Positions 7,975-51,850 of a DNA stretch of 60,182 bases are shown in pieces. Below the pieces are notes generated by a model. That model was not told the DNA's origin. It saw nothing but the letters and a program-made list of their open reading frames with translations, and did not search any database. The position numbers were made by a program, and so were the translations under genes. Position 1 is the stretch's first letter, and each line of letters starts with the position of its first letter. The stretch is from Candidatus Terraquivivens tikiterensis (GTDB taxonomy: Archaea; Thermoproteota; Nitrososphaeria_A; Caldarchaeales; Wolframiiraptoraceae): assembly GCA_003056285.1 (NCBI GenBank), contig NDWU01000001.1, forward strand, positions 101,236 through 161,417, in the 5' to 3' direction.

Positions 7975-8073
7975 ATTTCCATCACCTTGCGGAATCAACC
8001 TTATGCTTTCAAGAATGCAGCGGTTAATAATATTTTGCAAAGACTTAACCCCAGCTAGGCGATGAATGGACGC

Positions 8074-8180
8074 TAAAATTTAAATAGGGTTTTAACGTCG
8101 CAGCGGAAAACAGCATCCTTCGGGCGTTGGATGAGGAGTAGCGAACACTCATCACCCTCTCAACGAGCGTTATAGGTACT
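8074..8180 (+). ncRNA. Candidate hairpin RNA downstream of a TATA box (weak)
   Basis: The 300-base stretch 8041-8343 has no plausible gene. It holds an AT-rich TATA-like element, AAATTTAAATAG, near 8076-8087 that can serve both strands (the minus-strand surface protein lies on the other side). About 20-30 bases downstream on the plus strand is a nested inverted repeat: CGTTG-GATGAG paired with CTCATC and, further out, CAACG, near 8120-8162. A short T run follows near 8175. A small RNA is possible, but the signal could also be 5' leader or decayed DNA. Confidence 0.22.
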
Positions 8181-8343
8181 TTTAAAACGGTCGGGAAGCC
8201 TCTTGGCGTAGAAAAGCTTGTTGGTTAAAGCTTATGCAGGAAAGGCATGGAACGGATTTTTGGAATGCGGGAGAGGAGCAGAGCCGATGAGTCCCAAGGG
8301 CTAAGTGCGGAGCCATACATATCCGATAGCTCAGAGCCCTTGC

Positions 8344-8631
8344 GTGAGCTACCCACAACTAAAAGCCAGCGGGCCTCATGCCTCAAAGATGGAGCTTGCC
8401 GTTATCCCTACCATTAGGGGCTCCACCTAAGCAGGCGGATCAGGGTCAACATCCCCTCACCATCATCATGCACAGCTAAAGGTTTCAAGTAGCCTTTCCT
8501 CATTCTCCAGCTTAGGGTAGAGCTTGTAGGTCAGCTGGAATTTTTGCGCTTCTTGATCAACCTTATAAACTAAACTCTCTTCGCTCCCATCCCGCCACTA
8601 AAGGCGTGGGGTTTCCCGCCCACGATGTTAA
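8344..8631 (-). repeat. Dispersed IS200/IS605-like non-autonomous element, copy A
   Basis: Non-coding element of about 288 bp, one of three full copies in the window (with 37196-37565 and 51215-51565). At its low-coordinate end it has GTGAGCTACCCAC followed by the complement GCGGGC, the kind of end hairpin seen at the right end of IS200/IS605 elements. At its high-coordinate end it has CCCGCCACTAAAGGCGTGGG, a second hairpin. A core of about 100 bases (around 8427-8490, including AAGCAGGCGGATCAGG and CATGCACAGCTAAAGGTTT) is strongly conserved in all copies. No transposase or TnpB frame is present. Compared with copies B and C it lacks roughly 65 bases before the terminal hairpin. The end structure suggests the element reads on the minus strand. 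Confidence 0.7.
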
Positions 8632-8696
8632 ACTTATATGGATTTGTAGATTATTTTTAGCTAGGCCGCTGGAAGTGCCGTTGGGGGCACGCGCTC

Positions 8697-9125
8697 ATGC
8701 TTTACGAGAGGTCTGCTGGAGCCGTAATGTTTTACTATGATGGAAAGCGCACCGAATATCTGCTCCTGCTTTATGGTGCCGGGCACTGGGATTTTCCGAA
8801 GGGAAACATAGAGGAAAACGAGGAGGAGCTAGAGACTGTTAGGAGGGAAATTTTTGAGGAAACCGGTATAAAAAACCTTGTCTTCATACCCAACTTTAGG
8901 CACGAGATAAGGTACTTCTACAGGAAAAAGGGCGAGCTCGTTAACAAAGAGGTCGTATTCTACTTGGTCAGGTCTTACGAGAAAGAGGTCAGATTGTCCA
9001 GCGAGCATAAGGACTATGCATGGTTAGACTACGAGAATGCCCTTAGAAGGCTCACGTACAAGACCGCGAAGGAGACGTTGGTTAGGGCCCACGACTTCCT
9101 CGCGTCCATAGGCGGGCGGCTCTGA
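8697..9125 (+). CDS. Nudix hydrolase (Ap4A hydrolase-like)
   Basis: Small cytosolic pyrophosphohydrolase of 142 residues. The Nudix box is complete: starting at GNIEENE (about residue 41) and ending in REIFEETGI it matches G-x5-E-x7-R-E-U-x-E-E-x-G-U. The KGN before the box, the short length and the following FRHEIRYFYR segment resemble bis(5'-nucleosyl)-tetraphosphatases, but substrate specificity cannot be fixed. It stands alone between two gene-free stretches. A TATA-like CTTATATGG at 8632-8640 lies about 60 nt upstream of the ATG. Confidence 0.88.
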   Translation: MLYERSAGAVMFYYDGKRTEYLLLLYGAGHWDFPKGNIEENEEELETVRREIFEETGIKNLVFIPNFRHEIRYFYRKKGELVNKEVVFYLVRSYEKEVRLSSEHKDYAWLDYENALRRLTYKTAKETLVRAHDFLASIGGRL

Positions 9126-9529
9126 CGTCCTCAGCCACGAATGCTTGGTTCCTGCCTGACGCTTCGCCGTACCGTGCCTCCAGTTAAGGCACGAGGTGTC
9201 CTGTCTACCCTCACGTTAGCATTTAGGCTTTCGGAACCCTCGACCCAAAAACGGTGTCCAGGGATTTTTTTGGTTTGCCCGTCCATCCCGTCATTAATAG
9301 GCGTAAGCTTCTTGGTTAAGTATGGACGCATAGCGAATCGTTACCCTAACTAACGCTCCATAAGGGCTTGATACCGTATCATTTTACCGTTCCCGACGTC
9401 CTTTGATCCCAAAGCTTACCTACCGTGAGCTACCCACGGCCGTAAGCCGGCTTGCTCCTTGCTTCGACGACGGAGCGGGTCTTTCACAAGCTAAGTATTA
9501 ATAATGCAGAGCGTGTGGTATTGGAAGAG
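9126..9529. other. Gene-poor gap with a truncated dispersed repeat (9425-9476)
   Basis: About 400 bases without a convincing gene; short open frames here lack start signals and codon bias. Bases 9425-9476 (GTGAGCTACCCACGGCC and onward to GGAGC) match the first ~50 bases of the dispersed IS200/IS605-like element, so this is a fourth, truncated copy carrying only the low-coordinate end. The lipA promoter follows it directly: TATTAATAA at 9496-9504, about 25 nt before the proposed lipA start. Confidence 0.5.
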
Positions 9530-20587: not shown

Positions 20588-20610
20588 AGGTTCCCGCCCA
20601 TGATGTTAGA
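20588..20610 (-). repeat. Terminal fragment of the dispersed IS200/IS605-like element
   Basis: The bases GGTTCCCGCCCATGATGTTA match the high-coordinate end of copy A (GGTTTCCCGCCCACGATGTTA) with one deletion and one substitution. Only this end remains. It lies between the vapC stop codon and the left attachment repeat of the island. Confidence 0.55.
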
Positions 20611-37127: not shown

Positions 37128-37195
37128 AAAAGCTAAAAGAGGAGATTATAGAATACGTAGCCAGAAAACCTTAGAGTTGGGGATAAATGGCAAAC

Positions 37196-37565
37196 GCGAG
37201 CTACCCAAGGCTTAAGCCAGCGGGCCTGTCCAAAGACGGAGCCTGCTAGTACCAGTAGAGGTTCCGCCTAAGCAGGCGGATCAGGCCTACCATCCGCTCA
37301 TCACTATCATGCAGGGCTAAAAGTTTTCGGGTAGCCTTTCCTTATGCCCAGGCTTATGTTAGAGCTTGTAGCTCAGCTGGGTTTTTCCGCACTTCTCGGT
37401 CAGAGTTTTTACGACGTCGTAAGGTTCTCTTTTGGTGATTCTAAGCTTTTTCAAACTCTCCCTCGTCTATTTTGCACGATTATCGTTGTCCGCTCACGCA
37501 ATATGCACTTGTTCGATCTTATCCCACAACTAAAGGACGCAGTATTTCCCGCTCACTGTGCTAAG
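37196..37565 (-). repeat. Dispersed IS200/IS605-like non-autonomous element, copy B
   Basis: About 370 bp. Begins GCGAGCTACCCAAGGC and ends in CCCACAACTAAAGGACGCAG and GCTCACTGTGCTAAG, matching both ends of copies A and C. The core AAGCAGGCGGATCAGGCC and CTCATCACTATCATGCAGGG (near 37270-37318) is almost identical to copy C. No transposase frame. It ends only about 40 bases before tRNA-Val(CAC), and with the downstream element it makes this tRNA neighbourhood a repeated insertion target. The remaining bases 37128-37195 hold nothing evident. Confidence 0.7.
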
Positions 37566-37603: not shown

Positions 37604-37708
37604 GGGGCCGTGGTCTAGCGGTATGACGCATTCCGCATAAGGCCGCCCTCACGGCACCCTTCGGCTGGGAAACGGCGGAGGTCGTGGGTTCGAACCCCAC
37701 CGGCCCCA
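37604..37708 (+). tRNA. tRNA-Val (anticodon CAC) with two introns
   Basis: Acceptor GGGGCCG (37604-37610) pairs with CGGCCCC (37701-37707), discriminator A at 37708, genomic CCA following. D arm 37613-37627, anticodon stem CCGCC (37643-37647) with GGCGG (37674-37678), loop start CTCACG giving anticodon CAC, variable AGGTC, T arm GTGGG-TTCGAAC-CCCAC. Two inserts make the gene 105 bases: about 19 bases (37654-37672) at the usual 37/38 position, and about 14 bases (around 37629-37642) between D arm and anticodon stem. Exact splice points are uncertain by a base or two. Confidence 0.85.
37689..37708 (+). repeat. Attachment repeat in the tRNA-Val(CAC) 3' end
   Basis: The last 20 bases of the tRNA, TTCGAACCCCACCGGCCCCA, recur perfectly at 39588-39607. 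Confidence 0.8.
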
Positions 37709-51178: not shown

Positions 51179-51214
51179 TCTGGATAAGGTAGCGGCCCTG
51201 GTTTATATATTTTG

Positions 51215-51565
51215 GCGAGCTAACCACGGCCGAAGCCAGCGGGCTTCGTGCTTCAAAGATGGAGCCCCTACTGGTAGAGGTGCCGAGAAGCTCCACCTCG
51301 GCAGGCGGATCAGGCCTGCCATCCACTCATCACTATCATGCAGGGCTAAAGGTTTCGAGCAACCTTCCCTCATGCTCTGTTTTCGGATAGAGCTTGAGCT
51401 TGTAGCCCAGCCGAATCTTCGCATCCCTCGATCAGCCTTTTTATGACCCCGTCGTAAGATTCCTTTTTTGCACGCCATCGTTGCCCACCCGCTCACGCGA
51501 CGTGCATAAACTTTGTCCGCTCCCATTCCACGGCTGAGGCGCGGGATTTCCGCCCAAGGCGTTAA
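51215..51565 (-). repeat. Dispersed IS200/IS605-like non-autonomous element, copy C
   Basis: About 351 bp. Starts GCGAGCTAACCACGGCC and ends CCATTCCACGGCTGAGGCGC then CGCCCAAGGCGTTA. The core GGCAGGCGGATCAGGCC and CTCATCACTATCATGCAGGG (near 51300-51345) is nearly identical to copy B. No transposase frame. The following 51566-51850 has no supportable gene; a TATA-like TTAAATATATTA at 51809-51820 serves the MBF1 gene. Confidence 0.7.
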
Positions 51566-51850
51566 TTTGGCCGTCTCGAAATCAGCCTAGCGGCGGAGCA
51601 GGAAGTACCGGATTTTCCACGCTTCGCGTAGGTTCGTGCGGCCGAGGTCAAGCCTGAGGGGCTTGACGTCTGCGTTCCATGCGGAGGGGCCTGCGCTTTG
51701 TATGGGGAATCGGGGACGCTCGCAAAGGCTGGAATCCGGCTAATGATTGCGGTTAGCCCAAACTTCATCTAGCACGGAACCTGTTTGTATACCGTAACGC
51801 ATTCGCATTAAATATATTAGGGCGTTTCTTGAAGTCCTAAATGAACCGTC

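Follow-up and report, generated by a model that had tools for sequence, protein, structure and literature searches.

The window, a stretch of 60,182 nucleotides of archaeal DNA, holds three miniature copies of one dispersed family of mobile elements together with two fragments of it (Table 1). The three copies had been recognised in a sequence-only reading and are indeed present, aligning over their whole length with a mean column identity of 71%; alignment to empty sites leaves the low ends proposed there unchanged and sets the high ends slightly lower, since those proposed include a few bases of the target motif. The two end fragments are likewise real, 9425-9476 being a right end (RE) according to the covariance model and 20588-20610 a left-end (LE) fragment according to its sequence. 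Copy 2 (37196) has a longer 5' part, in which what is left of a VapB-like ORF still precedes tnpB, and in copy 3 (51215) the apical hairpin arm has been swapped for an inverted duplicate of the arm. An Rfam scan of the window returned tRNAs only; one of them, a 105-base match directly beside copy 2 (37604-37708), probably contains an intron, since it is longer than the 71-position model, and the region upstream of this tRNA gene is the ancestral target site. In the 1,536,389-base (1.54 Mb) draft genome to which the window belongs, family matches are far above chance: blastn retrieved 33, and a genome-wide search for further copies with the right-end covariance model R1 gave 58 right ends, about half of them weak matches. 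The right ends decay continuously, scoring from 158 down to 22 bits.

Table 1. Features of the element family in the window and the evidence on which each placement is based (a slash marks a join)
Feature	Positions	Strand	Basis or remark
Copy 1, miniature IS605-type element, class A deletion derivative	8344..8627	-	blastn and covariance-model matches; ends from alignment and congener site
Target motif TTTAA at LE of copy 1	8628..8632	-	kept in congener G004 (CATATAAGTTTAA/CCGTAG)
Putative guide position of copy 1, GCAAGGGCTCTGAGCTATCG	8324..8343	-	flank directly after RE; congener-site rule and PMC11043419
tnpB 3' end and right end of copy 1, omega-RNA scaffold terminating in ..GTGGGTAGCTCAC	8344..8469	-	covariance model R2, E 1.7e-34; fold z -2.0
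tnpB 5' remnant of copy 1, reading TYKLYPKLENEERLLETF	8470..8560	-	
Copy 2, class A	37196..37560	-	covariance-model match 37196-37310, E 2.1e-21
Target motif CTTAG of copy 2	37561..37565	-	congener empty site CTTAA
Putative guide position of copy 2	37176..37195	-	
Copy 3, class A	51215..51561	-	
Target motif ATTAA of copy 3	51562..51566	-	sequence
Putative guide position of copy 3	51195..51214	-	sequence
Right-end fragment of the family, coinciding with a synteny breakpoint	9425..9507	-	covariance model, E 1.3e-4
Bare left-end (LE) fragment, reading TAACATCATGGGCGGGAA	20588..20610	-	sequence
Synteny breakpoints relative to G004	8036-8627, 9109-9481, 37132-37562, 51182-51800		

On the minus strand the copies present, in this order, the target motif, an LE hairpin, a promoter-like box, the first tnpB codons, a deletion junction and the tnpB 3' end, which overlaps the RE; the omega-RNA scaffold lies within this last part and terminates in ...GGGTAGCTCAC. 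What had been proposed on the IS200/IS605 character of the ends, the orientation of the elements and the end that carries the scaffold is right. The family had also been described as being without any tnpA or tnpB. As far as intact genes in the window are concerned this is correct, but tnpB sequence survives inside the copies, with N-terminal coding pieces on one side of the common junction (near 8468-8480 in copy 1) and C-terminal ones on the other; the first codons read GYKLKLYPKTEHEGRLLETF in copy 51215, and the remnants contain stops and frameshifts. One junction is common to eight copies of about 285-365 bp (class A) and another to four copies of about 475-536 bp, in which both TnpB ends are fused in frame (class B). 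The recurrence of one junction at different loci is most readily accounted for by a single deletion whose product then spread. The promoter-like box, which was recognised by eye, occurs in the LE of most copies (e.g. GCGAACAAAGTTTATATA in C5_39029). With both ends present, no intact transposase or tnpB and several dispersed copies bearing the same deletion, these copies are non-autonomous, internally deleted derivatives of the IS605 group, of the PATE/MITE type, with omega-RNA scaffolds.

The longest family member in the genome, a 1.29-kb element with the same LE and RE (C35:19606-20897), encodes a TnpB of 379 amino acids (PF01385, E 4e-26) whose C-terminus (GSPDPPAEVEPL..EAGSPLAFSRG) is specified by the same bases as the conserved RE core. 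Its RuvC residues D188/E272/D332 are intact and invariant in relatives at 57-81% amino acid identity. A near-complete TnpB element with the same ends, as had been suggested might be sought, exists, and the copies are not partnerless, although a TnpB domain lies upstream of only this one of the 58 right ends and the other 57 are without. We had considered that the C35 TnpB might be decayed because it lacks a zinc ribbon, and rejected this since the same short form, with D188/E272/D332 invariant, is found in several archaeal groups. The TnpB subgroup represented by L031:997-2133 and L163-L176 is characterised by a shortened TNB domain, matched by Pfam over 29 of 60 positions only, by the absence of the zinc ribbon, by the presence of the RuvC-III aspartate and by the motif GTSEGLxYENPxRDWISAxRIKMRG. 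Directly before tnpB, the C35 element carries a C-terminal TnpA remnant, HVSDETIQKYIEEQKGK, which matches the TnpA of L171, an element from a Sigynarchaeota bin with the same kind of ends, a whole TnpA and a broken tnpB. Autonomous forms with a Y1 (HUH) transposase are thus represented by L171 and L164-L166, in which a TnpA-like ORF, read from sequence, lies upstream of the family tnpB, the miniature copies themselves being without TnpA. In L003 (G000:C31:1-536), L007, L005 and possibly L169, the place of tnpA is taken by a short ORF that overlaps the start of tnpB and matches the Pfam families DUF7557 (E 1e-9) and VapB antitoxin (E 2e-6). No TnpA of the family was found in the draft genome, whose contigs break at many TnpB copies, so that one may be missing; the sole Y1 transposase found there (C22) is part of an element whose RE is different. 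Many of the contigs (C1, C9, C13, C23, C32, C35, C38 and C2) terminate within tnpB genes belonging to several other families, and TnpB repeats evidently break the assembly.

Empty sites in congeners indicate how these elements insert. The clearest case is the clean insertion C1_88817, whose flanks are contiguous, and with TTTAA, in three congeners (..ACTTTAA/CTCATC.. in G005); pairwise alignment runs across this join, at which the element separates the target motif from the RE flank. C5_34981 lies between positions 382585 and 382598 of G004 C1, where G004 has GTTAA. At C15_103935 contiguity in the congeners is seen at the gene level, the intergenic flank being unconserved and giving no alignment across the join. 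The LE flank of copy 37196 matches G004 as far as CTTAA, and the continuation of this site, AGACGCGATGCTTTAGATTCTCCGTCCGATGC, recurs with four changes immediately behind the RE of the class A copy C14_21250; the ancestral site CTTAA/AGACGCG.. thus combines the LE flank of the former with the RE flank of the latter, and the flank now in the guide position of copy 2 derives from a different ancestral locus than its target motif. NTTAA (consensus TTTAA) adjoins the LE in most copies as well as at the congener empty sites, and the sites examined carry no target duplication. Since the empty sites read so, the family is shown, as judged by comparison between genomes, to insert directly 3' of NTTAA, so that the following bases come to occupy the guide position behind the RE. 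Subterminal hairpins, insertion 3' of a fixed short motif and absence of target duplication are as in the IS605 group. TARC-like tetramers had been suggested as a possible target motif; a motif does lie at that end, but it is NTTAA, the C of TARC being the first base of the element. The placement of putative guides just left of 8344, 37196 and 51215, on the other hand, agrees with the rule read from the congener sites, and the flanks in these positions differ at every copy. The insertion rule is identical to one that experiments on an IS605 TnpB have established in Sulfolobus islandicus, where TTTAA is the TAM, with NTTAA about as good, and the guide lies right after TTCAC (PMC11043419; PMC10640517).

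The right end was modelled with four helices, namely an outer CCTGCT/AGCAGG, GAGGTGGAGC/GCTCCATCTT, an apical CTGGTA/TACCAG and the terminal RE hairpin. In 58 matches from 52 loci of this genome and relatives, and with numbers that lean towards the model because the alignment was fitted to it, 82.2% of helix cells were paired as compared with 77.6 +/- 0.5 in shuffles and 30-49% in slid controls, and 82 two-sided changes, present in 22 of 32 pairs, compared with 37 +/- 7 in shuffles. A 12-sequence covariation test is weak on its own, and RNAalifold reported almost no covariation on a first alignment, in which the apical hairpin was misaligned until the structure-guided model mended it. Whole-arm replacements (the arm at C36:28697-28883, L099; the inverted arm in 51215) support the reality of the hairpin. 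The compensatory changes proposed as a check on the guide-RNA reading are therefore found in the RE helices, and a structured scaffold at the tnpB 3' end and RE followed by a variable guide is the arrangement of OMEGA systems. In such systems the RNA is expressed, binds TnpB and guides cleavage, and a TnpB with the D/E/D residues exists in this genome.

The greater conservation claimed for the core is confirmed in the eight class A copies with the same junction, where the mean column difference is 0.12 in CCTGATCCGCCTGC and the RE hairpin as against 0.29 in the 5' part (Mann-Whitney p 3e-6); the apical arm varies like the 5' part (0.31). Low variation in the former and high variation in the apical arm is a pattern that an RNA scaffold would show. 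This conservation had been read as suggesting selection on an RNA, for which it is insufficient alone, since the copies form mosaics and swap segments with one another. Pairs of class B copies switch sharply in identity along their length: C12 and C15_83355 differ at 1/128 positions in the scaffold and 46/96 in the 5' part, C31 and C12 at 0/152 positions in the 5' part and 11/142 in the tnpB remnant, and class B scaffolds are near-identical at different loci. Conservation of the core is thus owed partly to recombination between copies, which also homogenises their 3' part, and for the same reason we do not take it as sole proof of selection on a cellular RNA.

A search with the right-end model detected the family in none of 43 other genomes of the order (5 of the same genus, 16 of the same family and 22 of the same order). 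It is present in other families of the phylum, and TnpBs at 57-81% amino acid identity, some of them accompanied by TnpA, occur in bins named Bathyarchaeota, Nitrososphaeria, Brockarchaeota, Methanomethylicales and others. Because the family is absent from the 43 same-order genomes and has its relatives in other archaeal groups, horizontal arrival followed by multiplication is its simplest history. Comparison of the window with parts of the congener G004 placed all four synteny breakpoints in the mapped 44 kb at family copies or a fragment. Between the first two lies a Nudix gene (8697-9125) that stands in inverted orientation at its locus as compared with all five congeners, in each of which Nudix and its neighbour are side by side, and the window junctions at 37196 and 51215 occur in none of the five. 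The separated flanks adjoin other family copies elsewhere in the same genome: the counterpart of G004 C1:371360-371860 lies at C14:21257, directly next to the RE of C14_21250, and the counterparts of G004 C4:59640 and C1:382521 surround the right end at C5:34393-34540. The two other copies tested, C1_88817 and C15_103935, are not rearranged. Ectopic recombination between copies is the simplest cause of the breakpoints, and that TnpB cuts helped the rearrangement is speculation. A single reciprocal crossover at 51215 was considered and discarded, as the polarity of the flanks does not fit, and our claim there is limited to a breakpoint at family copies.

We therefore favour the following explanation, to which we assign a probability of about 0.92. 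Through one shared deletion the copies lost the greater part of tnpB together with tnpA, or with the VapB-like ORF that replaces it, and kept LE, RE and scaffold. The shortened copies, to judge from the recurrence of one junction at different loci, would have been moved in trans by the Y1 transposase of a full-length relative; since no family TnpA was found in the draft genome, their present mobility is unproved. A minus-strand transcript starting from the promoter-like box in the LE could then yield an omega-RNA that takes the flank following ..GCTCAC as its guide, and the single family TnpB may use such guides in trans to cut empty sites, with restoration of the element by recombination. That the C35 TnpB borrows the guides of miniature copies is plausible. 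Later recombination of copies with one another, supported by the congener comparison, would have shuffled their segments and rearranged the chromosome. It is tempting to go further and propose that one TnpB serves tens of dispersed guide-RNA genes in trans, that the omega-RNAs target their own empty sites so that miniature elements persist, and that breaks and repair between copies drive both gene conversion of the scaffold and chromosome rearrangement, a broader proposal that we regard as rather unlikely in its entirety.

A stronger competitor, to which we give somewhat less than even odds, keeps this origin and drops the trans-guide step: the copies would be dead MITE debris whose RE no longer makes RNA and which have no working partner protein. 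The failure to find a family TnpA, the weakness of about half of the 58 right ends and the stops and frameshifts of the tnpB remnants all agree with decay, but decay alone sits badly with class B scaffolds that are almost identical between loci, with the constraint on the scaffold, with the retention of a promoter-like LE box by most copies and with one TnpB whose catalytic residues are intact. The opposite reading, orphan guide RNAs selected for a cellular role in regulation or defence after transposition was lost, could draw on scaffold motifs conserved above the rest, on the covariation of the helices and on that same intact TnpB, and it nevertheless appears very improbable to us, given that the family occurs in no congener, that the guide differs at every copy, that right ends decay continuously from 158 to 22 bits and that conservation is confounded by recombination between copies. 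Exaptation of the TldR kind, with a nuclease-dead TnpB and a conserved guide at a fixed locus, is likewise not what we find, because the C35 catalytic residues are intact, the guides differ and the family is absent from congeners. The anatomy on which the guide-RNA reading of the sequence was built is sound, but a function of the copies for the cell is not supported. The short palindromic ends could also be those of an unrelated MITE family mobilised by a DDE transposase and resembling IS605 ends by chance; ends, tnpB pieces and insertion motif all match IS605 elements, empty sites show no target duplication, and C35 and L168-L171, which have tnpB between the same ends, refute it to the point that its probability is negligible.

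Internally deleted IS605 derivatives of this sort offer a natural case for testing whether non-autonomous elements survive on a borrowed nuclease: guide loci are numerous and TnpB is single, the congeners supply clear empty sites, and the motif rule has already been worked out in a cultured archaeon. They also place small repeats of this kind at the joints of a rearranged archaeal chromosome. The PATE of Halanaerobium hydrogeniformans, which consists of 28 nt of LE, the last 58 nt of tnpB and 160 nt of RE (PMC7290912), and other ends-only IS605 derivatives likewise join LE, tnpB 3' end and RE, have lost their coding capacity and are in principle mobilisable in trans. Unlike the PATE, the present family comprises dozens of right ends and two deletion classes (about 285-365 and 475-536 bp), and also keeps the start of tnpB and the promoter-like box of the LE. 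The IS605-group elements of S. islandicus REY15A (TnpB7, SisTnpB1; PMC11043419, PMC10640517) resemble it in their TAM, TTTAA (NTTAA), in an RE that ends in ..TCAC just before the guide and in a short TnpB, the RuvC residues D187, E271 and D335 of SisTnpB1 being likened by their published positions to D188, E272 and D332 here, but almost all right ends in our genome are without tnpB. Non-coding RNAs linked to IS200/IS605 elements have similarly been described in archaea (PMC12558985), where the omega-RNAs were seen by RNA-seq, whereas ours are predicted from sequence. PATE/MITE-like elements with omega-RNA scaffolds are thus a known kind, here unusually abundant beside a single TnpB.
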